A stretch of 38,441 nt of DNA from a virus. The notes under the pieces were generated by a model. That model did not search any database. It saw only the letters and a list, made by a program, of their open reading frames with translations, and was not told the origin of the DNA. The stretch's first letter is position 1; each line of letters begins with the position of its first letter. The translations under genes and the position numbers were made by a program. This document shows, in pieces, positions 4,898-38,441 of the stretch. The DNA lies in IMG/VR virus record IMGVR_UViG_3300028823_000279, positions 1 through 38,441 of that record; one strand, given 5' to 3'.

Positions 4898-4898
4898 T

Positions 4899-8838: not shown

Positions 8839-8846
8839 AACATCAC

Positions 8847-9272
8847 CTATGCTCTTCTATAATGCTCAATCCAAAGATTTTTAGACTTCGAATAATGAAG
8901 TCTAATAATCGAATTATTTTTTAACGTGAAATTGGCTGTTAACGACAAACCGTTTCCGTTTACTAATTCCACTGTATTTGTATCAGACATCCCTTCGATA
9001 TCTATAATTTTCCCATCAAACCATGCATATATTTGTGGGTTCGATGTTAAAGTTATAGCGCCGCCCGTACTTTCTATACGTATATTTTCTGATAATGGCG
9101 ATATAATGTCTGAAACACTTAATTGCTGAATATCTGAAACTCTATTTTTACCAAGCGATTGATCGCGAAGCGAATTAAACCAAGAATGCCATTTTTCAGT
9201 TACCTTAGAATTATCTCCCGAGATTTCATCTAATTTTGGCACTGGCGGAATATTTTCAGTCGTCGTTGTCAT
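8847..9272 (-). CDS. Small virion/neck protein, 141 aa
   Basis: Lies between the gp10-like and gp7-like genes, where P22 carries gp26/gp14. Residues 20-50 are helical (KVTEKWHSWFNSLRDQSLG) and the remainder is predicted beta strands with IEHYR at the end. It overlaps the upstream gene by 4 bp (9269-9272). Comparable small proteins at this place in podoviruses are tail-associated, but no motif proves a role. It is too short and lacks the long coiled coil of a gp26 tail needle. Confidence 0.7.
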   Translation of the reverse strand: MTTTTENIPPVPKLDEISGDNSKVTEKWHSWFNSLRDQSLGKNRVSDIQQLSVSDIISPLSENIRIESTGGAITLTSNPQIYAWFDGKIIDIEGMSDTNTVELVNGNGLSLTANFTLKNNSIIRLHYSKSKNLWIEHYRRA

Positions 9273-10741: not shown

Positions 10742-11441
10742 AATCATAACCTCTCGCATCGAATGAATCGGATAATCTTCCATCTACAATTGGATATAAA
10801 TTACATTCACTTGCCGATTGAATTTCATTTGATAATTCTTGATATCTGTTTTCTTTTCCACCATCCCAAACTGCTGATGGATAAATATCCCTAAGCGCTC
10901 TTGCTAAATCATAAATTACAAATTCATCCCATCCAGCAGGAACGATAATATCCAAATCATCTGAAATAATAAGCGGATAAACTTCAAATTTACCAACCAA
11001 TAGAATTTCATATATTCTTTCCGGCGTTGGCAAAAATGTTATTTTCGAATTGTCTAATTCTTGATTGAAATAATAGAAGCAGGGACGACCATATGAATTT
11101 AAATTACGATCATTATTGTAAAATGATTCTTTATCCAATACATCTAGGCAATATTGATATGAATTTTCACTTAATTTCACATATTCCAGCGAAACAAGTT
11201 TCTTCGTGTCAACATCTTTTCCAATTCCAATTGTATAGGAATCTTGGTTTGCTATTGTGTTAAAAGTTACCTCTTTTGTATAAGGAACTTTCGCCGAATC
11301 ATTGGCATAATTTTGTAAACGAAAATTTAAAGTTTTTAAACCTTCTGTTTTCCTGTAAGCTGGTAAATCTTCATTTGACCCTTTTACACCAATAAGAGTA
11401 TAAGCCCTTTCAATTGCAGAGATAACGGATGTTCTTGCCAT
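10719..11441 (-). CDS. P22 gp4-like head-to-tail adaptor, 240 aa
   Basis: Begins MARTSVISAIERAYTLIGVK, the helical start of gp4-like adaptors, then TLNFRLQNYAND and YTKEVTFNTIANQDSYTIG, a pattern shared by podoviral adaptor/gp4 proteins (length ladder, then a beta region starting T--DQ--Y-LP). In P22, gp4 binds the portal ring after packaging and opens the way for gp10. It lies directly after coat and before gp10, the P22 order. Confidence 0.8.
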   Translation of the reverse strand: MARTSVISAIERAYTLIGVKGSNEDLPAYRKTEGLKTLNFRLQNYANDSAKVPYTKEVTFNTIANQDSYTIGIGKDVDTKKLVSLEYVKLSENSYQYCLDVLDKESFYNNDRNLNSYGRPCFYYFNQELDNSKITFLPTPERIYEILLVGKFEVYPLIISDDLDIIVPAGWDEFVIYDLARALRDIYPSAVWDGGKENRYQELSNEIQSASECNLYPIVDGRLSDSFDARGYDYVKKPFV

Positions 11442-13775: not shown

Positions 13776-13817
13776 TTTTACCTCAATTGGTAACAGTAGT
13801 ACGGCTACTTCCGACTA

Positions 13818-13839
13818 GAATGTTCCACGTGAAACATTC
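13818..13839. promoter_or_regulatory. parS: parS site (ParB/Spo0J binding sequence)
   Basis: Bases 13821-13836 read TGTTCCACGTGAAACA, a perfect match to the bacterial chromosomal parS consensus TGTTNCACGTGAAACA. The symmetry extends to 22 bp with one mismatched pair. ParB CTPases load at such sites and spread along DNA. No parA or parB gene is visible in the genome, so it would depend on host ParB. It lies about 43 bp upstream of the scaffold start and just downstream of a predicted promoter, so it could also act as an operator. Confidence 0.85.
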
Positions 13840-13849
13840 CATTTGGGTA

Positions 13850-13878
13850 AATTTAATACAGTAAATTTTATTTGTCAA
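13850..13878 (-). promoter_or_regulatory. Predicted sigma70-type promoter for scaffold-coat genes
   Basis: On the minus strand, TTGACA (complement of 13873-13878) is followed after 17 bp by TAAATT (complement of 13850-13855), a perfect -35 and a 4/6 -10. Transcription would start near 13842, reading into the scaffold gene. The DnaA boxes end 4 bp upstream of the -35 and parS sits over or just after the start site. Host DnaA and ParB are therefore placed to influence this promoter. Confidence 0.6.
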
Positions 13879-13881
13879 GAG

Positions 13882-13901
13882 TTATCCACAGGTTATCCAC
13901 A
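13882..13901 (+). promoter_or_regulatory. Pair of perfect DnaA boxes (first cluster)
   Basis: TTATCCACA occurs at 13882-13890 and again at 13893-13901, both identical to the strongest E. coli-type DnaA box, in the same orientation 11 bp apart. Such pairs are found at origins and at DnaA-regulated promoters. Here they border the predicted scaffold promoter and parS. A second pair lies at 25873-25893. Confidence 0.8.
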
Positions 13902-13974
13902 GATTTTTACGCACACGATCTAACTCCAGCATATATATTGATTCGAGAGCTATATAGATTGAAATTTTTCCCGC

Positions 13975-13993
13975 GTTTTCCCGTCGGGAAAAC
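13975..13993. repeat. Perfect 9-bp inverted repeat
   Basis: GTTTTCCCG and CGGGAAAAC are separated by one base, within a wider zone of repeated CCCG and CGGG tracts (13969-13999). On the plus strand an A/T run follows (AAAATTTTTTTATG from 14009). It could be an operator or a hairpin that limits leftward or rightward transcription between the divergent genes. Confidence 0.6.
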
Positions 13994-14088
13994 GGGAAAC
14001 AATCAGGAAAATTTTTTTATGTTTTTTCATTCTTGAAGCAGTCAAAGATGAGCTCACGCGCTTGCTCTGATGAGTACTGTAAATTTCG

Positions 14089-14138
14089 TGTCATTTTGTC
14101 ACCTCAGAGGTGTCATTTTGTCACCTCAGAGGTGTCAT
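14089..14138 (+). repeat. 22-bp tandem repeats (iteron-like)
   Basis: Two exact head-to-tail copies of a 22-bp unit (14089-14110 and 14111-14132) beginning TGTCATTTTG and containing the palindrome CACCTCAGAGGTG across the junction. A third partial copy starts at 14133 (TGTCATTTG). Tandem direct repeats upstream of a small DNA-binding-protein candidate recall iterons or the centromere-like repeats of single-protein partition systems such as StbA, but this is analogy only. Confidence 0.75.
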
Positions 14139-14140
14139 TT

Positions 14141-14163
14141 GTCATTGAACGTCGTTCAATGAC
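14141..14163. promoter_or_regulatory. Perfect 10-bp palindrome, likely operator
   Basis: GTCATTGAAC and GTTCAATGAC flank a 3-bp spacer, immediately after the 22-bp tandem repeats, and ATGACAATGACA follows. It lies about 87 bp upstream of the plus-strand gene at 14250, so autoregulation by that gene product is an obvious possibility. The GTCAT core also occurs in each 22-bp repeat. Confidence 0.65.
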
Positions 14164-14249
14164 AATGACAAATATATTGCACAGATATTTGCATTATTTC
14201 TCTCGATTAGTTAAAATAGCCACAATTTATATATACTAAGAGGTATTTT

Positions 14250-14711
14250 ATGGGTCGTCCGCCATCAAAAGTACAGCCAGCAACTCAAAATGATGTAAAT
14301 ATCGATTTTAAATTTCCAACATTAACCCAAGAACAATTAGAGAAGATTCAAAGGAAACTAACAAAAGAACAATTTTCTTATTTTGTCACTCAATTGCACG
14401 AATCCGAACGAGTATTGGAAGAAGAAAAAAAACAGAAATCATCCTGTCATGCTGGGCAAACTATTAGGAATTTGAAAACCAATGAACATTATGTAATTGT
14501 GTGGACAGGAAAAGGACAGGTTAAAAACCATAATCTTGAAGTCAAAATTGTGAATCTCGATAATGTCGATGAAGAGGAAATTTTTAATACTGGCGAAGTA
14601 AAAGATACCTCATTAATATCTATGGACGAAATGGCAAAATTGATGAAAGTAGAAAATGCCAAAGAATTTTCACAAAATTTTGCTACAAACAGAGGAAGAT
14701 TCGAGGTTTAA
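14250..14711 (+). CDS. Cassette protein, 153 aa, function unknown (candidate DNA-binding)
   Basis: Plus-strand gene inserted between portal and scaffold genes, with a good AAGAGGT site before ATG. Begins MGRPPSKVQP, where GRP within a basic stretch resembles an AT-hook core. Residues 28-65 are helical and charged (LTQEQLEKIQRKLTKEQF, HESERVLEEEKKQ), and residues 75-125 look like a small beta domain (HYVIVWTGKGQVKNHNLEVKIVN). Its promoter region holds tandem repeats and palindromes, suggesting it binds them. Its stop overlaps the portal stop (shared TTAA). No ParA, ParM or TubZ partner is present. Confidence 0.7.
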   Translation: MGRPPSKVQPATQNDVNIDFKFPTLTQEQLEKIQRKLTKEQFSYFVTQLHESERVLEEEKKQKSSCHAGQTIRNLKTNEHYVIVWTGKGQVKNHNLEVKIVNLDNVDEEEIFNTGEVKDTSLISMDEMAKLMKVENAKEFSQNFATNRGRFEV

Positions 14712-24511: not shown

Positions 24512-24908
24512 TTTTTTTGAAGAATTTATTGACTACGCAGTAAGCGAAAGCGATATCGAAAAAATCAACAAACTGTATAACTTGCTTTATGAGTATATCA
24601 ATGAAAAGGAACGTGAGGCATTATTCAAAAATTATTTTTTGTGTGATTTACCTTTTTGGAAATGCGGGACTTACCAGCTGCTAAAGTTTTTAAAAATACT
24701 AATACGTGAAAAAATAATTGAACGCTTAACAGTCGCCGTCCTCTCCGATGATCGTTTTACGCCGCAAGAGGTACGCGATAAAATATGGGAGTTTAAGCAG
24801 GAGTACAAAGATAAAAAGCTTGACCCCGCAGAAATCGGTGGCGATCTTGACGAATATGCGCAAAAAATAGTTAACGAGCTGTATCTCGGTCTTAGAAATT
24901 ATGAATAA
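24495..24908 (+). CDS. Early hypothetical protein, 137 aa
   Basis: Start at ATG 24495 (MKTEHDFFEEFIDYAVSESD), preceded by TGGAGGGAAAA, which decides against an earlier frame start at 24465. Mostly helical and acidic (IEKINKLYNLLYEYINEKER), with a DDRFTPQEVRDKIWEFKQEY stretch. Not recognised. It overlaps the start of the XRE regulator by 8 bp. Confidence 0.7.
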   Translation: MKTEHDFFEEFIDYAVSESDIEKINKLYNLLYEYINEKEREALFKNYFLCDLPFWKCGTYQLLKFLKILIREKIIERLTVAVLSDDRFTPQEVRDKIWEFKQEYKDKKLDPAEIGGDLDEYAQKIVNELYLGLRNYE

Positions 24909-25191
24909 TTTAAAAATTGACCAAGAGACTCTATTTAAGCGAAAAACGATGATTGGTCATCGAATAAAAGACTTGCGGAGGATGTATAAAATAACACAAC
25001 GTGAGCTTGGCGAAGTTGTGGGGATGACCCGTTTTTCCTTATGCCGAATTGAGCGTGGGCGTGCTGCTATGCACATGTCCCACTTAATACGGACAGCGCA
25101 ATTTTTTGAGTTGCCGCTATCCTTTTTTTTTATGTCAGACGAGGAGCTACAAAATGCAAAATCCATCGAACAGAAAATCAAGTCCCTATAA
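24901..25191 (+). CDS. XRE/Cro-type HTH regulator, 96 aa
   Basis: Residues about 18-72 form a lambda-repressor-like HTH: IGHRIKDLRRMYKITQRELGEVVGMTRFSLCRIERGR, with the usual Q-ELG---GM-R---CRIE pattern of the recognition helices. A short C-terminal helix follows and no peptidase domain, so it is a Cro- or small-repressor-like protein. It ends the early operon and overlaps the next HTH gene by 38 bp. It could control the 21.1 kb or 25.5 kb palindromes. Confidence 0.85.
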   Translation: MNNLKIDQETLFKRKTMIGHRIKDLRRMYKITQRELGEVVGMTRFSLCRIERGRAAMHMSHLIRTAQFFELPLSFFFMSDEELQNAKSIEQKIKSL

Positions 25192-25450
25192 GCCGACGCA
25201 CAAAGCTAAGCATAAAATTACATTAAAGCGTAAAAAAGAAATATTAGAAGCCACCGACACAGAATTACCTCGTTTTTTGTCGATATTAAAAAGAAAGCGT
25301 ACAGAATTAGGGTACAGCCAAGACGAAGTAGCGGATTTTTTGGATATTTCTTGGGATGCATATAAAAAAATAGAATATGGGAAATCGAATAATTTCCGTG
25401 TAATTGATCTAATAAAGCTGCTAATGCTATTTGAGATTGATTATGTTTAA
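25154..25450 (+). CDS. Second XRE-type HTH regulator, 98 aa
   Basis: Start at ATG 25154 after GACGAGGAGCTAC, inside the 3' end of the preceding gene, in another frame. The first 40 residues are basic (MQNPSNRKSSPYKPTHKAKH), then the HTH LKRKRTELGYSQDEVADFLD with WDAYKKIEYGKSNN follows. Two overlapping XRE genes may form a switch pair or heterodimer. Its 3' end converges on a short leftward frame at 25447-25494. Confidence 0.8.
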   Translation: MQNPSNRKSSPYKPTHKAKHKITLKRKKEILEATDTELPRFLSILKRKRTELGYSQDEVADFLDISWDAYKKIEYGKSNNFRVIDLIKLLMLFEIDYV

Positions 25451-25548: not shown

Positions 25549-25872
25549 CAAATATGCTCAAGATTTTAAGCAACGATTAAACATCCATTTTATCAAGCAT
25601 TTGTAATTATTGTGATGTTTACAACAGCGACGTTTGCACGACTCCCATTACATTTCTATAAATTCAAGTCATTTCTAAAGCTTAGCGGAACGCTCATTAT
25701 TTCCTCAAATATGCAAAATTTATGCACTATTCCCACCGCGCCACCCTCTTTAAAAAATAAAAGCAAAAAAATACATTAGAGTATTAATAGAGAGGGGCTG
25801 CTCCCTACTTATTTGATTTCCTATTCGCACTTATTTTTGAATGCAGGCCTATTTTTGTCTATTTTTTGAAAG

Positions 25873-25893
25873 TTATCCACAGAGTTATCCACA
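25873..25893 (+). promoter_or_regulatory. Pair of perfect DnaA boxes (second cluster)
   Basis: TTATCCACA at 25873-25881 and 25885-25893, same orientation. They are placed downstream of repA, as in IncFII oriR. The spacing (12 bp) is close to one helical turn, so both face one side of the DNA. Confidence 0.8.
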
Positions 25894-26016
25894 GGCTAAG
25901 AAAAATTGACTTGCTGTGGGTCGCAATACAGGCGGACTTTCATTTTTTGTGCACAAAATTTGTTCAGCGGGTATTTTTAGGCAGGATTGTTCTAGGATTT
26001 CTATATTTTCTTGTTT

Positions 26017-26844
26017 TCACGTCTTTCCAAAGACTTTTTCTTTTGGTAGGTCGGGATGGTAAATGCCGCGTTCATACAATATTCTATTGATATCACCAAT
26101 CGACATTTTTCCAGCCTTAATTTGTGGTTCTAGGTTCAAGAAAAGTTCTCTGCTGCACTTGCAAAAATATTTACGTTGTTTTTCTTTTTCTGCTTCCTCT
26201 TTTTGCTCAAGTGTTTTTATTGGTTTACAAAGAGCTTCTTTAAGACTTTTCATGGCTTTTTTTAACTGTGGATTATTTTGGATGGCTGTTTCGCCGCGTT
26301 TCATTTCTAGTGATTTATGCTTCTTTCCTCTGCATAGATGTACACGCAGAGCAGATATTCCTAAATGATGTAATAATGTAAGGCTAACTCGCTTCAGCGC
26401 GATTTCCTTAATTTGTGCTTGTTTACTAGTTACATAAGACGCATTTTGAAGCACCATTAGCGCACGCCAACATCTATCGTAATTAATTCCAGCTTTTTCG
26501 GCAATGTCGTAAATTGACATATTTTTTGGTGTTCCTTGTTTATATCGAACGATGTTCATGGTATCGAGGTCTAAGTGGTCTAAAATCACGCCCGTAACGG
26601 CAGCCACAGCCTCTCTCGACTCCGTTCTTTGTTGACCCATGCTATGACCCTTATCAACATCAAAACGGCTTTCCTCGATGTTTTTTAGCCAGTTTTTTGG
26701 GTCTGAATAATATTCTGCTAGATTTTTTTGCGCGTCCGTTAAAATATCGTATGTTTTCTTTTTAAATGCTGGCCTTACGTATAGTCGCGGGCTGTTTGGC
26801 ACATGCCCACACCTATTGCCATAATTGTAACTAGCTTGCTCCAT
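26017..26844 (-). CDS. RepA-like plasmid replication initiator, 275 aa
   Basis: Residues about 76-150 look like the winged-helix domain of IncFII-type RepA: ESREAVAAVTGVILDHLDLD, then NMSIYDIAEKAGINYDRCWR and ALMVLQNASYVTSKQ, comparable with RepA's stretch of layout A-DALLQGL-FHYDP---...SI--LA-ECGL...TRAL-FL-ELGLI. A basic region (LCRGKKHKS) and a helical C-terminus with EKEKQRKY and INRILYERG follow, like RepA's EAVKREVERR tail. Length is close to R1 RepA (285 aa). The start has GGTGG upstream. Assignment is by pattern, supported by DnaA boxes downstream and an antisense promoter upstream. Confidence 0.6.
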   Translation of the reverse strand: MEQASYNYGNRCGHVPNSPRLYVRPAFKKKTYDILTDAQKNLAEYYSDPKNWLKNIEESRFDVDKGHSMGQQRTESREAVAAVTGVILDHLDLDTMNIVRYKQGTPKNMSIYDIAEKAGINYDRCWRALMVLQNASYVTSKQAQIKEIALKRVSLTLLHHLGISALRVHLCRGKKHKSLEMKRGETAIQNNPQLKKAMKSLKEALCKPIKTLEQKEEAEKEKQRKYFCKCSRELFLNLEPQIKAGKMSIGDINRILYERGIYHPDLPKEKVFGKT

Positions 26845-26857
26845 ATTCCACCAGCAT
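26831..26857 (-). CDS. Tiny overlapping frame at the repA start, 8 aa
   Basis: ATG at 26855-26857 encodes MLVEYGAS and stops at 26831, five codons inside repA in another frame. IncFII plasmids couple repA translation to a short leader frame (tap/repL), and this could do the same. It has no clear ribosome binding site of its own, so it may be chance. Confidence 0.25.
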   Translation of the reverse strand: MLVEYGAS

Positions 26858-26886
26858 TTAGCTTATAAAATATTTAAAAAAAAGTA

Positions 26887-26914
26887 TTGACACCCTTATA
26901 TTATCTGTTAAACT
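26887..26914 (+). promoter_or_regulatory. Promoter for the antisense RNA
   Basis: Perfect TTGACA at 26887-26892, a 16-bp spacer, and TAAACT at 26909-26914 (4/6 to TATAAT), directed rightward, away from repA, into the repA leader. A terminator follows at 26942-26981. This is the configuration of a short constitutive antisense RNA. Confidence 0.65.
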
Positions 26915-26920
26915 GCAAGG

Positions 26921-26981
26921 GTTTTAGTATCTAAGTAAAGTATAAGTCTTGACGTCGCCCGATGTCAAGGCTTATTTTTTT
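26921..26981 (+). ncRNA. Predicted antisense RNA (CopA-like) to the repA leader
   Basis: Between the predicted start (about 26921) and the T-run lies a 61-nt transcript whose 3' half is a 12-bp stem-loop ending in seven U residues. It is fully complementary to the repA mRNA leader, which runs leftward. In IncFII-type plasmids such an RNA (CopA/RNA I) binds the leader (CopT), blocks the leader peptide and so limits RepA. Role inferred from position and signals only. Confidence 0.55.
26942..26981 (+). terminator. Strong rho-independent terminator
   Basis: ATAAGTCTTGAC and GTCAAGGCTTAT form 12 pairs (one G-T) around GTCGCCCGAT, followed by TTTTTTT. It terminates rightward RNA from the 26887 promoter. 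The complementary structure in the leftward repA leader would fold as well and contains the stop of the candidate leader frame. Confidence 0.8.
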
Positions 26982-27024
26982 CACAAACACATATAAATAA
27001 CATTTCCCTAAGCTCGTCAATCAA
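26965..27024 (-). CDS. Candidate repA leader peptide, 19 aa
   Basis: A TTG start at 27022-27024 with AGAGAAAGAG upstream encodes LIDELREMLFICVCEKNKP (an internal ATG gives MLFICVCEKNKP). It stops at 26965 inside the stem that is complementary to the antisense RNA. IncFII tap peptides are also short, with a hydrophobic Cys/Leu core (MLRK...FLC--LLLC type). Ribosomes finishing here could open the repA leader fold. Suggestive, not proven; the start codon is non-standard. Confidence 0.3.
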   Translation of the reverse strand: MIDELREMLFICVCEKNKP

Positions 27025-27110
27025 CTCTTTCTCTGCTTTTAAATTGGTATAACTAGACCTAAATTGTATCTATTTTGTACATAAACCAAGTTTTTTCAAA
27101 AAAATTTAAG

Positions 27111-27187
27111 TGCCGCCGTCAGGAATTAAACCTGAATCTCACGCAAGAAGGGCTAATCCTCGCGCGCTTTTCTTAAGCTACGGCGGC
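27111..27187 (-). tRNA. tRNA-like gene 1 with long anticodon stem
   Basis: Acceptor stem GCCGCCG/CGGCGGC is a perfect 7 bp with discriminator A; T-arm TCAGG-TTTAATT-CCTGA is perfect; D-arm GCTT-AAGAA-AAGC is short and lacks GG. The anticodon arm is an 8-bp helix (CGCGAGGA/TTCTTGCG) with loop TTAGCCC instead of the normal 5 bp. Canonical loop numbering would give anticodon AGC, yet the Ala G3:U70 pair is absent. CCA is not encoded. Decoding identity is not assigned. Confidence 0.6.
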
Positions 27188-27277: not shown

Positions 27278-27283
27278 AATTAG

Positions 27284-27368
27284 TGACGCCAGCTGGATTC
27301 GAACCAGAATCTTGCTAGAAAAATTTTTAAGGAAAAACTAGCATGTTTTACCATTAAACTATAGCGTC
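27284..27368 (-). tRNA. tRNA-like gene 2 with enlarged anticodon arm (Gly-like body)
   Basis: Acceptor GACGCTA/TGGCGTC (7 bp, one G-U) with discriminator A; D-arm TAGTTTAATGGTAAAAC resembles tRNA-Gly; T-loop TTCGAAT is canonical. The anticodon arm is 31 nt: stem TGCTAG/CTAGCA around a 19-nt loop that includes TTTTTCCTTAAAAA. Standard arms are 17 nt. If the centre reads TTTCCTT the anticodon would be TCC (Gly), but this is uncertain. No CCA. Its 5' end overlaps the stop of the preceding gene. Confidence 0.6.
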
Positions 27369-27604: not shown

Positions 27605-28588
27605 TTAAGTAAAAGTTTGTTTGTTTCTGCTTTCGCCATAATTGCAGCATATCTCGATTTGATGTAAGTCTGAATTGATCGTTGATGCTTCTTCTTTTTC
27701 AAGTTGCTCTTCCTCGCTGATGGTTGTCGGTATTTCTACTTCATCTTTTTTCTTGCTTTTTGCTTTAACAGGTTCTTTTTCTTTTGCGTCAAAAGCCGCG
27801 TTTAACTGATCGGTTGGGTTTATTTGCTGTTCTATCATTGCAGGAGCTTGAACCGTTTTTCCTTCGATTACTTCTGCATTGTCAAAAGTAGTATCTTCGT
27901 GCCACATATCTTGATTTGATGTAAGTCTGAATTGATCGTTGATGCTTCTATCTAGGCGTTTAGTTAGTCTTCGCAAGACTGTTTTCTTCGCCATTTCTCC
28001 CCAACTATTTGTCCATGCTGTGCCGTTCTTTTGTTGTGAGTAGCGATTTCTAATATCATTTATCTCATCTACAGACATCGGATCAACATAAACTTGCTCT
28101 ATCCCTCTTGCGTCTAACTCTTTGCCGACGGCGTACACCCCAATTATTTCTCCTCGATTAAAAGCGGATTTTCCTGAAATTTTATGATACGGTTCTTCTC
28201 CAAAACGTAACCAAAATTCGTCGTTTTCATGAACAAGCTGAACATCAATTTTTGTTACGCGTTTAGAACGTTTCGCAAGAGTCAATTTGCCCTTATAATC
28301 CATCATACATTTACACACATTACCGTAAGCCACAAGATGAAAATCGTACCCTAATTCTAGTTTATTCCTAACCCCTTCCATTGCAGCCAAATAAATTGAA
28401 TCTGGCGACGCTTTTAAAACTTCTGGATTTATTTGAAGCTGATTTATTAATACGCGGCTTAAGTTCTTACAGCGTGCTTCTTTTTCTTCTAAAGATAATT
28501 TGCGCCCGTCGTAATCTGTTTCTAGCAACGAAATCATTGCTTTTCTGTTAGCCTTTAACGTGTTTGTCACTTCTGTAATATTTGTCAT
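27605..28588 (-). CDS. recT: RecT-family single-strand annealing protein, 327 aa
   Basis: RecT/Redbeta-type recombinase. Recognisable blocks: LSRVLINQLQINPEVLKASP, YLAAMEGVRNKLELGYDFHL, GNVCKCMMDYKGKLTLAKRS (the usual Y-G---LA-RS), and WGEMAKKTVLRRLTKRLD near residues 195-212, a signature of RecT. It anneals complementary strands after resection by the YqaJ exonuclease encoded 3 bp upstream. The C-terminal 50 residues are a Glu/Ser-rich tail that includes part of a duplicated DNA segment read in another frame. Confidence 0.9.
   Translation of the reverse strand: MTNITEVTNTLKANRKAMISLLETDYDGRKLSLEEKEARCKNLSRVLINQLQINPEVLKASPDSIYLAAMEGVRNKLELGYDFHLVAYGNVCKCMMDYKGKLTLAKRSKRVTKIDVQLVHENDEFWLRFGEEPYHKISGKSAFNRGEIIGVYAVGKELDARGIEQVYVDPMSVDEINDIRNRYSQQKNGTAWTNSWGEMAKKTVLRRLTKRLDRSINDQFRLTSNQDMWHEDTTFDNAEVIEGKTVQAPAMIEQQINPTDQLNAAFDAKEKEPVKAKSKKKDEVEIPTTISEEEQLEKEEASTINSDLHQIEICCNYGESRNKQTFT
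27649..27692 (+). repeat. 44-bp direct repeat in recT, copy 1
   Basis: Matches 27906-27949 in 43 of 44 positions, the two copies 257 bp apart. Copy 1 encodes part of the RecT tail (TINSDLHQIEI) in a different frame from copy 2. It therefore looks like a template-switch duplication that created the present C-terminus. Confidence 0.85.
27906..27949 (+). repeat. 44-bp direct repeat in recT, copy 2
   Basis: Second copy, in the conserved RecT domain, where it encodes SINDQFRLTSNQD in the normal frame. This is the likely source copy, because it lies in the conserved body of the protein. Recombination between copies would delete the Glu/Ser tail. Confidence 0.85.
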
Positions 28589-28591
28589 GAT

Positions 28592-29587
28592 TTATGTCCT
28601 CTTGGTTGGAGTAAAGATGGTGATTTGTGTAGGAGTTGCAAAAAGACTGTTGTAGTCTTCTTCTGAAATTAGAGTCTTTAGTTTTTCTTTGTCTAGCTTT
28701 GGCGGATTATTCTTATTGTAGCATACGCCTAGCTTTTGACCTTCGTTGTCTTGCAAGGTATATGCGTCGCCCATGTAATTTTTTATAAGTAGCGATTGCT
28801 CGTCTTTTTCTTTTTTATATTTTTCGATTGCCGCTGCTAAAAAGCTATATTTTTTTACAGCCTCGTCAATTTCTGCCGTTGCGATGATTGCTTTTTTCTT
28901 GTTGTGCGAGACGTGCAGTAAATTGTAATCAGCATTATTCATCGGTGGCGGTGGTATCTTTTTTAGTACGTGCTTTTCCCAAAAGCGTTCTTCGATGTCG
29001 ATTATTCTTTTTTCAAGTTTCTTATCGCGCTCATACCGATAAATTTTAAAATATTCATCGTCGCCCGATAGCCCCTCAAATCCTATCATGCCAGCGATGT
29101 CAACGAATGGTGCATCGCAAACAATAGCATAGTGAATGCATTGCAGCCAATATTCAAGCGGGGCTTTGGTTTTCCACCGGTCGGCTTTTGAGGGATGAAC
29201 TGTTTTGCATTCTAAAATATGCCAACCTAATAATGGATTAAAAGTCTCTAATGGCGGAGTAAAGCTCCCAATTATCTTATCTGGATGCGCAAGCATAAAA
29301 TCACGTGTTCTAAGTAGCGGTGAATGGTCAACAATACAATAAGTTTCATTTTTAGTAGCATTTTTACTTAAATAAAGCTCTGTTACCAAGTACTCTGCAT
29401 TAATCCCACGCCTCTGGTCAATCGTCGGTTCTGTATCTTCTGGCTCAAGCACCTTTGAATAATAAACCTCAAGCGGTGTTTTAAATGGTGTAAGCTCAAG
29501 TTCTGGCAATTCAGCAGCCACAAGGCTTGCTACATCTGAACCGCCAATGCCCGAGCGGCGTTCTTCGAGAAATTTAGTTCTGTCCAT
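28592..29587 (-). CDS. YqaJ-type exonuclease (RecE/lambda Exo superfamily), 331 aa
   Basis: Residues 10-20 RRSGIGGSDVA are the YqaJ start motif. The catalytic set of the PD-(D/E)XK fold is visible: E65 in NAEYLV, D103 in AHPDKIIG, E126 and K128 in HILECKTV, and Q149 in YWLQCIHYA. It resects double-stranded ends for RecT, with which it forms the usual phage two-gene recombination pair (RecT start 3 bp away). It probably rescues replication forks or circularises terminally redundant packaged DNA. Confidence 0.9.
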   Translation of the reverse strand: MDRTKFLEERRSGIGGSDVASLVAAELPELELTPFKTPLEVYYSKVLEPEDTEPTIDQRRGINAEYLVTELYLSKNATKNETYCIVDHSPLLRTRDFMLAHPDKIIGSFTPPLETFNPLLGWHILECKTVHPSKADRWKTKAPLEYWLQCIHYAIVCDAPFVDIAGMIGFEGLSGDDEYFKIYRYERDKKLEKRIIDIEERFWEKHVLKKIPPPPMNNADYNLLHVSHNKKKAIIATAEIDEAVKKYSFLAAAIEKYKKEKDEQSLLIKNYMGDAYTLQDNEGQKLGVCYNKNNPPKLDKEKLKTLISEEDYNSLFATPTQITIFTPTKRT

Positions 29588-29708
29588 TGTCTTTGTCCTC
29601 TTTGATTAATGCATTGATTGATATACCTCTACCGAAGATATTAGATTTATCACCTACTATTTTTCCGTCATTCACTACTTTATTTATGCGTGTCAGCGCT
29701 TGTTTCAT
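29574..29708 (-). CDS. Small protein between pentapeptide array and exonuclease, 44 aa
   Basis: ATG at 29706-29708 follows GAGGTGAATC and encodes MKQALTRINKVVNDGKIVGD through IKEDKDNGQN. The ribosome binding site is the same GAGGTG that is encoded by the DEV codons at the end of the last pentapeptide gene, so it reuses the array junction. Overlaps both neighbours (29 bp and 14 bp). Function unknown. Confidence 0.65.
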   Translation of the reverse strand: MKQALTRINKVVNDGKIVGDKSNIFGRGISINALIKEDKDNGQN

Positions 29709-30240
29709 GATTCACCTCGTCGTTGATAATTGGAAGCCCGATTGCTTCTTCAAAATGCTTTTTGTCGAGTTTTGTTCCGCGTAGGTATGCGCCGCGTAGG
29801 TATGCGCCGTTTAGGTATGCGCCGCTTAGGTTTGCGCCGCGTAGGTCTGCGTAGATTAGGTCTGCGCCGCTTAGGCTTGCGTTGCTTAGGTCTGCACCAC
29901 GTAGGTCTGTATAGTTTAGGTGTGCGCCGAATAGGTTTGCGTTGCTTAGGTTTGCGCCGTTTAGGTCTGCGTCGCGTAGGTCTGCGCGGAGTAGGTTTGC
30001 GCCGAGTAGGTCTGCGTTGCGTAGGTCTGCGCCGTTTAGGTCTGCACCGTGTAGGTCTGCGTTGCGTAGGTTTGCGTGGCTTAGGTTTGCGCAGTATAGG
30101 TCTGCACCGCGTAGGTTTGCGCTTCGTAGGTCTGCACCGCGTAGGTTTGCTCCGCATAGGTAAAATTTCCCATCTACAATCCTAGGAGCATGCCCTAATA
30201 TTTTGGTTAAGATTTCTTGCGTCTCTTCAAAGGTTTTCAT
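29680..30240 (-). CDS. Pentapeptide-repeat protein 8 of the array, 186 aa
   Basis: Last gene of the array. Cap MKTFEETQEILTKILGHAPR, then about 26 pentapeptide units of A(D/N)LRG type from residue 31, then the tail RGTKLDKKHFEEAIGLPIIN. Instead of ending DEVKK it continues NHETSADTHK, because the junction to the next gene has changed. The repeats predict a right-handed quadrilateral beta helix as in Qnr and MfpA, which mimic DNA and bind gyrase; that role here is only a hypothesis. Overlaps gene 7 by ATGA. Confidence 0.9.
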   Translation of the reverse strand: MKTFEETQEILTKILGHAPRIVDGKFYLCGANLRGADLRSANLRGADLYCANLSHANLRNADLHGADLNGADLRNADLLGANLLRADLRDADLNGANLSNANLFGAHLNYTDLRGADLSNASLSGADLIYADLRGANLSGAYLNGAYLRGAYLRGTKLDKKHFEEAIGLPIINDEVNHETSADTHK

Positions 30241-30908
30241 TTTTTCACCTCGTCGTTGATTATTGGAAGCCCGATTGCTTCTTCAAAATGCTTTTTGTCG
30301 AGTTTTGTTCCGCGTAGGTATGCGTAGCTTAGGTTTGCGTTGCTTAGGTGTGCGCCGCATAGGTCTGCCTCGCTTAGGTTTGCGTGTTTTAGGTTTGCGC
30401 CACATAGATTTGCATCGATTAGGTCTGCGTTGCGTAGGTTTGCGTTACTTAGGTATGCCTCGCTTAGGTCTGCTTCGCGTAGGTTTGCTTCGCGTAGTTC
30501 TGCGTCGCTTAGGTCTGCAACGCGTAGGTCTGCTCCGCGTAGGTCTGCGCCGCGTAGGTCTGCGCCGAATAGGTCTGCGCGACGTAGGTCTGCGCCGCTT
30601 ATGTTTGCGCCGCTTAGGTTTGCGCCTCGTATGTCTGCACCGACTATGCATGCACCGACTAGGCATGCACCGCGTAGGTCTGCGTTGCTTAGGTATGCGC
30701 GGCTTAGGTTTGCGTGGCTTAGGTATATACCGCATAGGTTTGCGTTACTTAGGTCTGCGTCTCGTAGGTCTGCGCCTCGTAGGTCTGTGTAGATTAGGGA
30801 TGCACCGCGTAGGTCTGCGTTGCTTAGGTAAAATTTCCCATCTACAATTTTTGGCTCATGCCCTAATATTTTGGTTAAGATTTCTTTCGTCTCTTCAAAC
30901 GTTTTCAT
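30237..30908 (-). CDS. Pentapeptide-repeat protein 7 of the array, 223 aa
   Basis: Cap MKTFEETKEILTKILGHEPK, about 33 pentapeptide units, and tail LDKKHFEEAIGLPIINDEVKK shortened here to the common form. The middle is the most regular run of the array (ADLRGADLRGADLRVADLSD), with acidic residues on one face. Start overlaps the stop of gene 6 (ATGA) and its ribosome binding site is encoded in that gene's last codons. Confidence 0.9.
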   Translation of the reverse strand: MKTFEETKEILTKILGHEPKIVDGKFYLSNADLRGASLIYTDLRGADLRDADLSNANLCGIYLSHANLSRAYLSNADLRGACLVGACIVGADIRGANLSGANISGADLRRADLFGADLRGADLRGADLRVADLSDAELREANLREADLSEAYLSNANLRNADLIDANLCGANLKHANLSEADLCGAHLSNANLSYAYLRGTKLDKKHFEEAIGLPIINDEVKK

Positions 30909-31516
30909 TTTTTCACCTCGTCATTGATTATTGGAAGCCCGTTTGCTTCTTTAAAATGTTTTTTGTCGAGTTTTGTTCTGCTTAGGTTTGCGCCGAGTAG
31001 GTTTGCATTGCGTAGGTCTGCTCGGCGTAGGTCTATGCCACTTAGGTATGCACCTCGTAGGTCTGCGCCTCGTAGGTTTGTGTAGATTAGGGATGCACCG
31101 CGTAGGGCTGCGTTGCTTAGGTTTGAGTCGCTTAGGTCTGCACCGAATAGGTCTGCGTTGCTTAGGTTTGCGCCGCGTAGATCTATAACGCATAGGCATG
31201 CCTCGCTTAGGTCTGCAACGCTTAGGTCTGCTCCGCGTAGGTCTGCTCCGAATAGGTCTGCGCGACGTAGGTATGCGTAGCTTAGGTCTTCGCCGATTAG
31301 GTTTGCGCCGATTAGGTTTGCGCCGATTAGGTTTGCACCGCTTAGGTTTGCGTGGCTTAGGTTTGCGCCGCGTATGTCTGCACCGCGTAGGTTTGCGCTT
31401 CGTAGGTCTGCACCGCGTAGGTTTGCTCCGCATAAGTAAAATTTCCCATCTACAATTTTTGGCTCATGCCCTAATATTTTGGTTAAGATTTCTTTCGTCT
31501 CTTCAAACGTTTTCAT
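30905..31516 (-). CDS. Pentapeptide-repeat protein 6 of the array, 203 aa
   Basis: Same cap and tail, about 30 units. It shares the block SGIDLRRADLRNANLLGAN and the tail variant KEANGLPIIND with genes 2 and 4, while its front (LIGANLIGANLIGEDL) is its own. It also begins with the same units as gene 8 (LCGANLRGADLRSANLRGAD). The mixed relationships point to block exchange among array members. Confidence 0.9.
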   Translation of the reverse strand: MKTFEETKEILTKILGHEPKIVDGKFYLCGANLRGADLRSANLRGADIRGANLSHANLSGANLIGANLIGANLIGEDLSYAYLRRADLFGADLRGADLSVADLSEACLCVIDLRGANLSNADLFGADLSDSNLSNAALRGASLIYTNLRGADLRGAYLSGIDLRRADLRNANLLGANLSRTKLDKKHFKEANGLPIINDEVKK

Positions 31517-31989
31517 TTTTTCACCTTGTCATTGATTATTGGAAGCCCGATTGCTTCTTTAAAATGCTTTTTGTCGAGTTTTGTTCCGCGTAGGTATGCG
31601 TTGCTTAGGTCTGCGTCTCGTAGGTTTGCACCGCGTAAGTCTGCACCGCGTAGGTCTGCACCGTGTAGGTATGCACCACGTAGGTTTGCGTCGCGTAGGT
31701 ATGCGCCGAGTAGGTATGCGCCGTGTAGGTATGCGCCGATTAGGTTTGCACCGCGTAGGTCTGCGTAGATTAGGTCTGCGCGGCTTAGGCTTGCGTTGCT
31801 TAGGTCTGCACCACGTAGGTCTGTATAGTTTAGGTGTGCGCCGAATAGGTTTGCGCCGTGTAGGTATGCGCCGCTTAGGTCTGCACCGTGTAGGTTTGCG
31901 CCGAGTAGGTCAAATTTCCCATCTACAATCCTAGGAGCATGCCCTAATATTTTGGTTAAGATTTCTTGCGTCTCTTCAAACGTTTTCAT
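31513..31989 (-). CDS. Pentapeptide-repeat protein 5 of the array, 158 aa
   Basis: Cap MKTFEETQEILTKILGHAPR, about 21 units, tail FKEAIGLPIINDKVKK. The segment LFGAHLNYTDLRGADLSNAS is shared with genes 3 and 8 and is followed by the same LIYADLRGANLIGAYL in gene 3. The KVKK ending shows that the junction ribosome binding site is AAGGTG here rather than GAGGTG. Confidence 0.9.
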   Translation of the reverse strand: MKTFEETQEILTKILGHAPRIVDGKFDLLGANLHGADLSGAYLHGANLFGAHLNYTDLRGADLSNASLSRADLIYADLRGANLIGAYLHGAYLLGAYLRDANLRGAYLHGADLRGADLRGANLRDADLSNAYLRGTKLDKKHFKEAIGLPIINDKVKK

Positions 31990-32507
31990 TTTTTCACCTC
32001 GTCGTTGATTATTGGAAGCCCGTTTGCTTCTTCAAAATGCTTTTTGTCGAGTTTTGTTCTGCTTAGGTCTGCGCCTCTTAGGTTTGCATTGCGTAGGTCT
32101 GCTCGGCTTAGGTCTATGCCGCTTAGGTATGCGCCGCGTAGGTCTGCGCCTTGTAGGTTTGTGTAGATTAGGTATGCACCACGTAGGTCTGCGGCTCGTA
32201 GGTTTGTGTAGATTAGGGATGCACCGCGTAGGTCTGCGCCTCTTAGGTTTGCGTAGATTAGGTTTGCACCGCTTAGGTTTGCGTGGCTTAGGTCTGCTTC
32301 GCGTAGTTCTGCACCGCCTAGGTCTGCGTTGCGTAGGTTTGCGTGGCTTAGGTTTGCGCCGAGTAGGTCTGCACCGCATAGGTTTGCTCCGCGTAGGTTT
32401 GCTCCGCGTAGGTTTGCTCCGCGTAGGTAAAATTTCCAATCTACAATCCTAGGCTCATGTCCTAGTATTTTGGTTAAGATTTCTTGCGTCTCTTCAAACG
32501 TTTCCAT
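31986..32507 (-). CDS. Pentapeptide-repeat protein 4 of the array, 173 aa
   Basis: Begins METFEETQEIL rather than MKTFEETQEIL because of one base change at 32504, which also removes the stop of gene 3. About 23 units; shares LLGANLSHANLRNADL and the SGIDLSRADLRNANL end with gene 2. The two genes are identical at DNA level over about 90 bp at the tail end (32042 and 33063 regions). Confidence 0.9.
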   Translation of the reverse strand: METFEETQEILTKILGHEPRIVDWKFYLRGANLRGANLRGANLCGADLLGANLSHANLRNADLGGAELREADLSHANLSGANLIYANLRGADLRGASLIYTNLRAADLRGAYLIYTNLQGADLRGAYLSGIDLSRADLRNANLRGADLSRTKLDKKHFEEANGLPIINDEVKK

Positions 32508-33010
32508 TTTTTCACCTTGTCATTGATTATTGGAAGCCCGATTGCTTCTTTAAAATGCTTTTTGTCGAGTTTTGTTACGCTTATTTTTGCGCCGAATAGG
32601 TCTGCGTTGCGTAGGTTTGCACCGCGTAAGTCTGCACCGCGTAGGTCTGCACCGTGTAGGTATGCACCACGTAGGTTTGCGTCGCGTAGGTATGCTCCGC
32701 ATAGGTCTGCGCCGTGTAGGTATGCGCCGATTAGGTTTGCACCGCGTAAGTCTGCGTAGATTAGGTCTGCGCCGCTTAGGCTTGCGTTGCTTAGGTCTGC
32801 ACCACGTATGTCTGTATAGTTTAGGTGTGCGCCGAATAGGTTTGCGCCGATTAGGTTTGCGCGGCTTAGGTTTGCGCCGTGTAGGTTTGTGTAGATTAGG
32901 GATGCACCGCGTAGGTCTGCGTAGCTTAGGTAAAATTTCCCATCTACAATCATAGGAGCATGCCCTAATATTTTGGTTAAGATTTCTTTCGTCTCTTCAA
33001 ACGTTTTCAT
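32474..33010 (-). CDS. Pentapeptide-repeat protein 3 of the array with read-through tail, 178 aa
   Basis: Cap MKTFEETKEILTKILGHAPM, about 22 units, normal end INDKVKK. The stop codon TGA at the expected place is TGG, so translation continues for 11 extra residues (WKRLKRRKKS) into gene 4 in another frame. The extra tail is strongly basic. A single substitution both extends this gene and alters codon 2 of the next. Overlap with gene 4 is 34 bp instead of 4. Confidence 0.9.
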   Translation of the reverse strand: MKTFEETKEILTKILGHAPMIVDGKFYLSYADLRGASLIYTNLHGANLSRANLIGANLFGAHLNYTDIRGADLSNASLSGADLIYADLRGANLIGAYLHGADLCGAYLRDANLRGAYLHGADLRGADLRGANLRNADLFGAKISVTKLDKKHFKEAIGLPIINDKVKKWKRLKRRKKS

Positions 33011-33708
33011 TTTTTCACCTTGTCATTGATTATTGGAAGCCCGTTTGCTTCTTCAAAATGCTTTTTGTCGAGTTTTGTTCTGCTTAGGTCTGCGCCTCTT
33101 AGGTTTGCATTGCGTAGGTCTGCTCGGCTTAGGTCTATGCCGCTTAGGTATGCGCCGCCTAGGTTTGCGTCGCGTAGGTCTGCGCTTCGTAGGTCTGCGT
33201 AGGTTAGGTCTGCGTCGCTTAGGTTTGCACCGCGTAGGTCTGCGTTGCTTAGGTCTGCTTCGCGTAGTTCTGCACCGCGTAGGTCTGCGTTGCGTAGGTT
33301 TGCGTGGCTTAGGTTTGCGCCGAGTAGGTCTGCACCGCGTAGGTTTGCTCCGCGTAGGTTTGCGTCGCGTAGGTCTGCGCTTCGTAGGCCTGCGTAGCTT
33401 AGGTCTGCGCCTCGTAGGTCTGCACCGACTAGGCATGCACCGCGTAGGCCTGTGTAGCTTAGGTCTGCGCCGTGTAGGTTTGCGCCGCTTAGGTTTGCGC
33501 CGCTTAGGTTTGCACCGCGTAAGTCTGCGCCTCGTATGTCTGCACCGCGTAGGTATGCACCACGTAGGTCTGCGTAGCTTAGGTTTGCGCCGCTTAGGTT
33601 TGCACCGCGTAGGTCTGACTCGCTTAGGCAAAACTCTCCATCTACAATCCTAGGCTCATGCCCTAATATTTTGGTTAAGATTTCTTGCGTCTCTTCAAAC
33701 GTTTTCAT
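33007..33708 (-). CDS. Pentapeptide-repeat protein 2 of the array, 233 aa
   Basis: Longest member: cap MKTFEETQEILTKILGHEPR, about 36 units, tail SRTKLDKKHFEEANGLPIIN. Includes several exact or near repeats of 40-60 bp within the gene. Sizes from 73 to 233 aa across the array show that unit number changes freely. With about 36 units a helix roughly 9 coils long is expected, similar to or longer than that of MfpA or Qnr. Confidence 0.9.
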   Translation of the reverse strand: MKTFEETQEILTKILGHEPRIVDGEFCLSESDLRGANLSGANLSYADLRGAYLRGADIRGADLRGANLSGANLSGANLHGADLSYTGLRGACLVGADLRGADLSYAGLRSADLRDANLRGANLRGADLLGANLSHANLRNADLRGAELREADLSNADLRGANLSDADLTYADLRSADLRDANLGGAYLSGIDLSRADLRNANLRGADLSRTKLDKKHFEEANGLPIINDKVKK

Positions 33709-33926
33709 TTTTTCACCTCGTCATTGATAATTGGGAGTCCGATTGCTTCTTTAAAATGTTTTTTGTCGAGTTTTGTTCCGCTTATGTTTGCGCCGCGTAG
33801 GTTTGCGTTGCGTAGGTTTGCGCCGCGTAGGTTTGCGCCGAATAATTCAAATCTTTTACCAACAATTTTTGGCTCATACCCAAGAATCTTAGTTAGGATT
33901 TCCTCTGTTTCTTCAAATGTTTTCAT
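33705..33926 (-). CDS. Pentapeptide-repeat protein 1 of the array (short), 73 aa
   Basis: First member and the most diverged: cap MKTFEETEEILTKILGYEPK, only about 5 units (FGANLRGANLRNANLRGANI), tail TKLDKKHFKEAIGLPIINDE. It looks like a minimal core from which the others could have expanded, or a contracted copy. Starts by ATGA overlap with the RusA-like gene. Confidence 0.85.
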   Translation of the reverse strand: MKTFEETEEILTKILGYEPKIVGKRFELFGANLRGANLRNANLRGANISGTKLDKKHFKEAIGLPIINDEVKK

Positions 33927-34474
33927 CGTTCAACTCTTTCAAAGATTAAAAACGAAATGTTTGGGTCAATTTTATCGGGTTCGTCTGCTATGATTATTTT
34001 CGATCGTCTAAATAACTTATCATCTTCAACTATTTTGGCGTACTGAAGCGCATCGTTTACGACTTTTAACAAATTTTCCATGTCACGCCTTCGCCTATCT
34101 GGCATGACAATAAGAATGCATGCGCCAGCGGTTTTGCTTATCGTTCCGCGTTTACTGACAAGATTCGCCAAATAATATTTTGCATATTGACGATAATCTC
34201 TTATGCAGTCTTTCAATACATGAATTGCTTTGTATGGTTTTTGTTTTTTCCTTGAATAATTAGGGCAGTTTTTGTAACCAATAGCAACAGACTTATTTTT
34301 GTATGCGAAATTTGAACCATTAAAATTATTTAGACGAAGATTGGTATAATATTGATTGTTTCCTGTGGTAGGCGGAAAGGGAAGCGAAAAATAGTATTTT
34401 AGTTTCCAACCTTCAGAAACTGGAAAGGTAGGTTTATTATATGTATATAATAAAAATTCAATTCTTGACTTCAT
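33923..34474 (-). CDS. RusA-family Holliday-junction resolvase-like protein, 183 aa
   Basis: The RusA layout is clear: the start of the fold FSLPFPPTTGNN (residues 29-40) and the catalytic segment MPDRRRRDMENLLKVVNDAL (124-143) with IVEDDKL. D131, K137 and D151/D152 correspond to RusA D70, K76 and D91, while RusA D72 is E133 here. A 60-residue Asn/Lys-rich insertion separates the two parts. It probably resolves branched replication or recombination DNA before packaging. First gene after the 34.5 kb promoter. Confidence 0.8.
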   Translation of the reverse strand: MKSRIEFLLYTYNKPTFPVSEGWKLKYYFSLPFPPTTGNNQYYTNLRLNNFNGSNFAYKNKSVAIGYKNCPNYSRKKQKPYKAIHVLKDCIRDYRQYAKYYLANLVSKRGTISKTAGACILIVMPDRRRRDMENLLKVVNDALQYAKIVEDDKLFRRSKIIIADEPDKIDPNISFLIFERVER

Positions 34475-36741: not shown

Positions 36742-38432
36742 GCAGGGACTTCTTCTATAGTAAAACTTGAATAATTAATAAATAAGCTCGTATCGCTTCC
36801 ATCGCCATTTAATCTTAGATTGCATGTTGCATCCGGGCCTATGCGGGCTGTATAAGTTCTTGATGGCGTCGTTGGTGGTTGATAGAAAAAAGTCCACTCA
36901 ATCGACTTTAAATTATTAGTAGAATCAGTGCCTTTAATTTTTTTCGACCGTTTGCCGATACAGCTTGAGCCAAAGCTTTCAAAAACAGCGACAGTTACAG
37001 CCACGTCGGCATCTACCCATACAACGACAGATAAACTAATTTTTAGCATTTTAGACAAACTGCTTAGTGTAAATGGGATTGTAAAAGTAACAGGAGTTGG
37101 AGCGCCGTCACTAATCAACGTTCCTTCTGAAATAAGAGGCGGAGTATTATCGCGTGGAATTACTGGAGCGGACGATATTAAATTTTCTATTCCGAATTGT
37201 ATAGAAACTGGTTTTGGAACAAATCCTAATACTTTGCTCCCGTTAGTTTGTAATAGCTGGCCAAGTACGCCGTCTGCCGTCGGTAATGAAAATCCTGCAA
37301 CAGCAAATGGAACTCCGTATTCTCCAGTTCCGCCGCCTGTTTTTGCGGCATAACTGAAAGCAGTATGGTTGATCACTGAGCCGCCGGACTGAACATCATT
37401 TACGGTAATTACATATTTCCCGTCTTCAATATCACCTGCTTGTGTAGTAGGTAATAGTTCTACGTATGGGTATTGTCCTGAAAGCGAACCGTCTTGCCTT
37501 TCACCATAAGCGATATGAGCACCTAAATCAGCGGTCGGCAAAATTGTTGTTGGCGATGATGGACTTCCTTCGGCAAACGAAGTTTCAATACGCGCTGCTT
37601 GCGTGCTGGCGTAGCCTTTTGCGCTAATAAGAGGTCTTTTGCCGCGAATTAAAATTCCATGTTCTGTGGAAATAATATTGTGATTATGATCGTTTACATT
37701 AATTGGTGTATCTGCCTCGTTTTTACCATGAATGATTATGTCTGCCGTCGCGCCTGCTGCAACTTTTATTCCTGTTGTCCCAGTAAATGAGCCAGTTTTT
37801 AAAGTTTGTCCGACGATAATGGTTGCGTGTCCTTGATCAACATTTATTCCGCCTACATTGTTAGCTCCAAGCAATAAAGTATCAATCTTAATTATATTTT
37901 TAATTGAGCTTGCATTATCAACGAGCACGCCATATGGTGTCCCTGTGGCGACTTCCATTTCTAGTGTTCCGATTGAAATATTAGCCGATGCGGCACTAAG
38001 AATACGCAGAGTATTTATTGGTGAAAATTTGCCATTTACATATCTTGCAGTATAGTATGCAATATCTGAAGCTGTTGCCCCAACAAAGTCAAAAAATCCT
38101 TCTCCTTGTTCAGCGCATATTATTTTTGATTTTCCTTCGATATCAATAAAATTGCCGATTAATTTTGCATTTGGCGCATAAAAAACAACATAATCGTTTA
38201 TTGATTTTGACTGGATGCTGTATGTTCCATTGTCTAAACATAAAATAGTAACAGGAGTGCTTACGCTTGCTGCTGCATTGGCAACATCTAAAGCTTTAGC
38301 TGCTGTTACAAACGGTTTGTGTTCTGATAATCCGCTATTGCTGTCTGAACCATATTTTGCAAGGAAATATGTCTGAACCGCATCATAAGATTTTGCAAGA
38401 TTAAATGTTTGCTTGTGTCTAATAAATCCCAT
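36738..38432 (-). CDS. Tail fibre/spike protein with beta-helix, 564 aa
   Basis: The N-terminus MGFIRHKQTFNLAKSYDAVQTYFL is followed by a parallel beta-helix-like region (residues about 60-270) with repeating strands such as ANISIGTLEMEVATGTPYGV and IIVGQTLKTGSFTGTTGIKVAAGATADI, as in tailspikes. A fibre motif, ADGVLGQLLQTNGSKVLGFV, lies around residue 385-405, and the last 130 residues form a beta-rich C-terminal head. Probably recognises a surface glycan or protein. It begins at the circle junction and belongs to the leftward fibre operon. Confidence 0.85.
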   Translation of the reverse strand: MGFIRHKQTFNLAKSYDAVQTYFLAKYGSDSNSGLSEHKPFVTAAKALDVANAAASVSTPVTILCLDNGTYSIQSKSINDYVVFYAPNAKLIGNFIDIEGKSKIICAEQGEGFFDFVGATASDIAYYTARYVNGKFSPINTLRILSAASANISIGTLEMEVATGTPYGVLVDNASSIKNIIKIDTLLLGANNVGGINVDQGHATIIVGQTLKTGSFTGTTGIKVAAGATADIIIHGKNEADTPINVNDHNHNIISTEHGILIRGKRPLISAKGYASTQAARIETSFAEGSPSSPTTILPTADLGAHIAYGERQDGSLSGQYPYVELLPTTQAGDIEDGKYVITVNDVQSGGSVINHTAFSYAAKTGGGTGEYGVPFAVAGFSLPTADGVLGQLLQTNGSKVLGFVPKPVSIQFGIENLISSAPVIPRDNTPPLISEGTLISDGAPTPVTFTIPFTLSSLSKMLKISLSVVVWVDADVAVTVAVFESFGSSCIGKRSKKIKGTDSTNNLKSIEWTFFYQPPTTPSRTYTARIGPDATCNLRLNGDGSDTSLFINYSSFTIEEVPA

Positions 38433-38441
38433 TTTATTACC
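38298..38441. repeat. Terminal direct repeat (copy 2)
   Basis: Identical to bases 1-144. Includes the start of the fibre gene and 9 bp upstream of it. Removing one copy gives a 38,297-bp circle. Confidence 0.95.

Follow-up and report, generated by a model that had tools for sequence, protein, structure and literature searches.

In the IncFII replicon of plasmids R1 and R100, the initiator gene repA is followed by a spacer and then by the origin oriR with its DnaA box, and it is accompanied by the antisense RNA CopA and a tap leader. Phage genes and a plasmid initiator, the combination considered here, are joined in the phage-plasmids P1, N15 and SSU5 and in the RepA mycobacteriophages Miko, Rachaly and Jeeves. 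Prophages of mycobacteriophages can be extrachromosomal and RepA-dependent, repA being both necessary and sufficient (PMC7157519), and among podoviruses F116 has been reported to persist as a plasmid in its prophage state (PMC5217972).

We analysed a window of 38,441 nucleotides, which comprises the whole of the IMG/VR virus record IMGVR_UViG_3300028823_000279 and in which an earlier note, made from the sequence alone, had proposed an IncFII-like plasmid replicon carried by a P22-like phage. We consider it probable, with a likelihood of roughly three in four, that this locus is a functional theta-type, IncFII-like plasmid replicon with antisense copy control, and that the lysogen harbours the phage as a low-copy circular plasmid. 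The phage-plasmids would thereby come to include a podovirus that is P22-like and carries an IncFII-like replicon; from the other phage-plasmids it would differ in this virion type, in its IncFII-like control, in the lack of a par operon and in the possession of a parS site of chromosomal type. As the replicon claim concerns some 1.5 kb of DNA that form a self-contained fragment, it is directly testable.

The phage genome

The record carries an exact 144-bp terminal repeat (1-144 = 38298-38441), and three further IMG/VR contigs of the same virus, which have other start points, span the junction, so that the map is a circle of 38,297 bp. These three contigs are 100% identical to the window in almost all compared stretches and are probably not independent samples; one of them differs from the window inside the repeat array. 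Seven overlapping or abutting pentapeptide-repeat ORFs, mutually about 80% identical at the DNA level, occupy positions 29680-33708; other assemblies of the virus break within this array, and another rep-bearing virus (L044) encodes a protein resembling these ORFs. Close relatives of rep and of the portal gene in IMG/VR belong to this same virus only. A circular map fits a plasmid prophage and equally headful packaging, and is not diagnostic for either.

The relationship to P22 proposed earlier is well founded: P22-type portal, coat and neck genes stand in P22 order, with matches for portal (phrog_156, E 2e-80), coat (phrog_283), Hc3 (phrog_578) and ejection (phrog_598), and annotated P22-like portals are among the best portal matches. 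Further virion and lysis genes recognised with PHROGs include TerL and an endolysin. Judged by its gene content, the phage is a short-tailed, P22-like podovirus. PHROG or profile matches also identified a RecT-like single-stranded DNA annealing protein (27605-28588), a RecE/YqaJ-like exonuclease (28592-29587) and a RusA-like Holliday junction resolvase (33923-34474), all on the minus strand. The earlier note had seen neither an integrase nor a phage polymerase, and in this respect too the searches agree with it: Phage_integrase (PF00589), which was found in 14/14 control genomes, is absent from the window, and no integrase, polymerase or helicase was recognised among the window ORFs scanned with PHROGs.

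The Rep family

The rep gene (26017-26844, minus strand) encodes a protein of 275 aa with the motifs GNRCGHxPxSPR and QQRTESREA and a winged helix. Its predicted function as an initiator of plasmid type is based on profile, tblastn and structural evidence. A profile of 43 relatives, built without the window Rep, scored the latter with 133.6 bits (E 1e-40), and tblastn with the window Rep retrieved proteins of about 30% identity from 126 plasmid and 10 phage records. Carriers of the family comprise plasmids (Legionella, Pseudomonas IncP-11, Aeromonas) as well as phages; rather than pointing to an unrelated family, the plasmid homologues include proteins annotated as replication initiators, namely repP-11A of the IncP-11 plasmid RP1-1 and RepA of Drgb7, and further the Rep of Legionella antarctica pTUM19329-1. 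In an alignment of 44 sequences, ten residues are invariant (G9, N10, C12, H14, R73, E75, R77, E78, R124 and R127). The AlphaFold2 model (mean pLDDT 83.7) shows a winged helix of the order helix-strand-strand-helix-helix-strand-strand at residues 74-153, in support of the winged helix that had been proposed from the sequence.

The affiliation with IncFII needs to be qualified. Searched alone, the window Rep matches no Pfam or NCBIfam Rep model, and its sole PHROG match is phrog_20951, the function of which is unknown in PHROGs. The Pfam family IncFII_repA (PF02387) was found neither in the window Rep nor in any of 11 members, nor, with a limit of E≤10, in any of 16 complete records. The NCBIfam model for initiators of the IncFII/IncL-M type, RepA_IncFII_LM (NF040977), matches 25 of the 44 relatives (best 7e-10), the window Rep not being among them. 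Against 193 ORFs, the top non-member retrieved by the family profile was the R1-type RepA, with 14.9-17.2 bits versus at most 4.4 for decoys (E 1.6e-4 with the window Rep left out, 3e-5 with it included); hhalign aligned the family with R1 RepA at E 3e-4 and a probability of 40%, and its alignment with RepA of the IncL/M plasmid pEL60 alone was not significant. Searches of the PDB with the single protein or with the family profile gave no usable family call, and the fold search in BFVD returned one confident viral relative. On the basis of these comparisons, made with the R1-type RepA, the pEL60 RepA and the NCBIfam model, the matches to RepA_IncFII_LM and the rank of the R1-type RepA, together with the lack of PF02387 matches in the members tested, argue for a separate sister family, distantly related to the IncFII and IncL/M RepA proteins and IncFII-like, but not IncFII proper. 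The term chosen in the earlier note therefore fits the family relationship, the layout and the gene content, but not membership in IncFII_repA.

The plasmid relatives RP1-1 (repP-11A) and pTUM19329-1 share about 30% identity with the window Rep over 57-70% of the protein and, unlike the window phage, are plasmids, the latter with a MipZ/ParA gene adjoining rep. On the phage side, Rep proteins of this family are encoded by Pseudomonas phage PARCL1pr and by the Aeromonas phages Ahp2, AhyVDH1 and 32, where they are annotated only as hypothetical; none of these has a P22-like virion type, the three Aeromonas phages having tail-sheath, P2-like gene sets, and PARCL1pr, unlike the window phage, carries ParA and integrase genes. 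In Ahp2 (L011), the annotation replaces the Rep frame at 9869-10891 by two hypothetical ORFs, one of them on the opposite strand. Another 37-kb virus (L054) encodes a Rep of the same family at 4797-5651; DnaA boxes with one mismatch follow the gene, and homologues of RecE/RecT are encoded close by (7678-9915), which suggests a rep-recombination module.

Phage and plasmid copies are interspersed in the Rep tree, where supported branches require the phage label to change six times or more, and rep therefore seems to be exchanged between phages and plasmids. The Rep family identified here goes under the label 'hypothetical' in the majority of phage records, and for this reason phage-plasmids are probably being missed.

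Candidate origin and antisense unit

Two perfect DnaA boxes (TTATCCACA), which the earlier note had located about 125 bp beyond the rep stop, lie 123 bp (25885-25893) and 135 bp (25873-25881) downstream of it, both on the plus strand, as measured in contigs with an identical locus. The whole window contains five exact TTATCCACA boxes, that is two tandem pairs and a single one, as compared to 0.34 on average in sequences shuffled by a Markov model, and a pair within 20 bp occurred in 0/301 shuffles. Across 26 dissimilar loci of the family, one of them the window virus, 10 exact boxes were counted in 8.4 kb (up to 350 bp downstream of rep) versus 1 in 233 kb elsewhere; a second set, consisting of genome contigs, gave 23 boxes in 19.9 kb downstream versus 20 in 427 kb elsewhere, some of the latter being located in loci with broken rep copies. 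In an R1-type control, the box follows rep at a distance of 175 bp. This clustering, along with the R1-type control, places the origin of the family downstream of rep. The spacing varies between the relatives: PARCL1pr, Ahp2, AhyVDH1 and 32 have a box at 81-187 bp (with one mismatch in phage 32), the Legionella relatives have paired boxes at about 280-305 bp, and the IncL/M plasmid pEL60 has one-mismatch boxes at 128-165 bp; exact boxes are absent from many members of the family. An origin of the iteron type was rejected, as no iterons were found near rep.

At the window locus, we infer origin activity for an oriR-like candidate region at 25700-26016, which contains the DnaA boxes and an AT-rich flank; its position is conserved in the family, and its limits are approximate. 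The AT-rich stretch noted earlier beyond the boxes is present but modest, reaching at most 76% AT per 50 bp near 25750 versus 61% genome-wide.

The leader of rep contains an oppositely oriented promoter-terminator unit, in keeping with the earlier description. A promoter-like sequence, TTGACA-16-TAAACT with TG before the -10 element (26887-26914, plus strand), precedes a candidate CopA-like antisense RNA (26920-26981, plus strand), which is proposed from its fold and its family-conserved position and consists of one hairpin with a 15-bp stem, serving at the same time as intrinsic terminator (the stem-loop spans 26942-26975, and the T run behind it reaches to about 26981). The predicted fold has -21 kcal/mol (z = -5.2), which was equalled by 0/200 shuffles. 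In 24/52 loci, some of which are closely related so that the effective number is smaller, the antisense strand bears an intrinsic terminator 80-170 nt upstream of the rep start; for the two 90-nt bins that adjoin further upstream, the counts are five and four loci. The distances before the start are 130 nt in the window, 117-130 in a Legionella relative (L074), 123-128 in PARCL1pr and 166 in the R1-type control; many members of the family lack the terminator.

The locus thus resembles R1/R100 in gene order, in the downstream DnaA box and in the short opposite-strand RNA with terminator in the leader, and the similarity of the RepA proteins is weak but specific. Unlike R1/R100, it is phage-borne, possesses two tandem boxes, has no PF02387 match, and its antisense RNA would be a single hairpin of about 60 nt. 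A repressor gene of the CopB/RepB type was not found upstream of rep, where tRNA genes and a 75-aa ORF without PHROG match are located instead. Antisense control of rep is probable, and its mode may differ from that of CopA. A promoter-like sequence directed towards rep, TTGACA-18-TATACT (26939-26968, minus strand), lies within the antisense hairpin; if this drives rep, antisense RNA and mRNA would overlap by only about 11 nt, and control would be exerted via transcription interference or via pairing with longer read-through transcripts. An 8-codon, tap-like leader ORF (MLVEYGAS; 26831-26857, minus strand) overlaps the rep start and may be due to chance. Just upstream of rep are two tRNA genes (27110-27187 and 27283-27368, minus strand); ARAGORN assigns one of them to Ala with AGC as its anticodon, uncommon in bacteria, and the other to Lys (TTT).

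Proposed mode of replication and alternative readings

According to the mechanism we propose, Rep, made from the minus strand, would bind the origin just downstream of its gene and, together with host DnaA at the two boxes, would open it and load the host helicase; remaining replication would be left to host enzymes, since neither a helicase nor a polymerase is recognisable among the genes of the phage. The short plus-strand antisense RNA in the rep leader would limit the synthesis of Rep and thereby the copy number. Rather than integrating, the circular genome of 38.3 kb would persist in the lysogen as a plasmid of low copy number. Upon induction, the same origin and RecT/RecE recombination would probably feed concatemers for headful packaging, lytic use of the rep origin being likely as no other replication gene is visible.

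This very dependence could also mean that Rep and its origin serve as a lytic origin only, a captured plasmid initiator without a stable plasmid prophage, a reading which we regard as unlikely. Rep is the sole recognisable replication gene of the phage genome, so that lytic growth needs either Rep or recombination, and Ahp2, which encodes a relative of it, is described as a lytic phage that does not lysogenise (PMC8001559). A par operon is lacking as well: ParA (PF13614; found in 14/14 controls) and ParB (PF02195; found in 11/14 controls) are both absent from the window. However, two small HTH repressor-like genes recognised by PHROG or profile matches, one a HTH_3 regulator and possible immunity repressor (24901-25191, plus strand), the other a second HTH_3 regulator with uncertain start (25106-25450, plus strand), suggest a temperate life; an antisense unit for copy control is better suited to maintenance at low copy number than to a lytic burst, and the relatives include plasmids as well as PARCL1pr, in which a ParA-like gene adjoins rep.

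The long branch of the window Rep (2.34 changes per column), the exact placement of which is unsure, might be taken as a sign of decay, with the locus being the remnant of a plasmid-phage fusion that has lost replication; this is improbable, as the reading frame is intact, all ten invariant residues are kept, the tandem boxes and the antisense unit are intact and the phage possesses no alternative replication genes. That Rep is a winged-helix transcription regulator without any role in replication, the DnaA boxes being incidental, is highly improbable, for even though the PDB matches retrieved by Foldseek were generic winged helices throughout, MarR-like regulators being the best (E 0.014), and no Pfam Rep model matches, the boxes cluster just downstream of rep across the family, relatives match RepA_IncFII_LM and bear plasmid replication annotations, and the 44-sequence alignment shows a conserved N-terminal block that lies apart from the winged helix.

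A candidate parS site beside tandem DnaA boxes

The more surprising part of this genome is not the replicon but a parS-DnaA-box element in the intergenic region 13776-14249, which has the scaffold gene on one side and an ORF adjoining the portal gene on the other. It comprises a candidate host ParB site, TGTTCCACGTGAAACA (13821-13836), which perfectly matches the chromosomal parS consensus, TGTTNCACGTGNAACA; even with two mismatches permitted, no other site of the window matches (0.18 expected), and this one has none. The second tandem pair of perfect DnaA boxes (13882-13890 and 13893-13901, both on the plus strand and exact matches) is found 45 bp from it.

Scanning IMG/VR for parS followed by a DnaA box within 20-50 bp yielded 20 contigs, and the reverse order, box to parS within 10-40 bp, also yielded 20, partly overlapping the first; scrambled controls (CACGTG to CAGCTG) returned 0 and 0 contigs for the two patterns. 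In 33 parS loci (L188-L220), 115 DnaA boxes lie within 300 bp of parS versus 3 in 262 kb elsewhere, 33 of the 115 being due to selection as each locus was chosen for at least one box. These loci fall into 12 groups at the DNA level, one of which is the window virus, and several are near a T7-type primase-helicase, DNA polymerase, TerL or portal gene. An integrase was present in 0/12 of the contigs tested and a Rep of the window family in 0/33 loci. A T7-type RNA polymerase was matched neither in the parS phages nor in the controls, so that this negative carries no information. Given these other gene contexts and the lack of window-type Rep, the element is not confined to plasmid-like phages. 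Besides partitioning a plasmid prophage, it may accordingly serve to titrate DnaA and ParB, or have a role linked to an origin. We found no published description of a parS-DnaA-box element in phages.

As neither ParA nor ParB was found in the phage, the host chromosomal ParB might be recruited by the parS at 13821 to partition the plasmid, which is more speculative than the replicon itself. Our tentative proposal, which may well prove wrong, is that a plasmid prophage without par genes hitchhikes on the host ParABS system via parS and that, more broadly, parS within a DnaA-box cluster represents a recurrent, hitherto undescribed element, by which unrelated phages mimic the origin-proximal region of the host to recruit or titrate ParB and DnaA. 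If ParB binds this element, it would constitute a shared phage route to the host chromosome machinery. The same intergenic region contains, at 14088-14173, a tandem repeat of 22 bp together with an inverted repeat of 13 bp that is perfect, both upstream of a moron-like ORF of 153 aa (14250-14711, plus strand) between the portal and scaffold genes.
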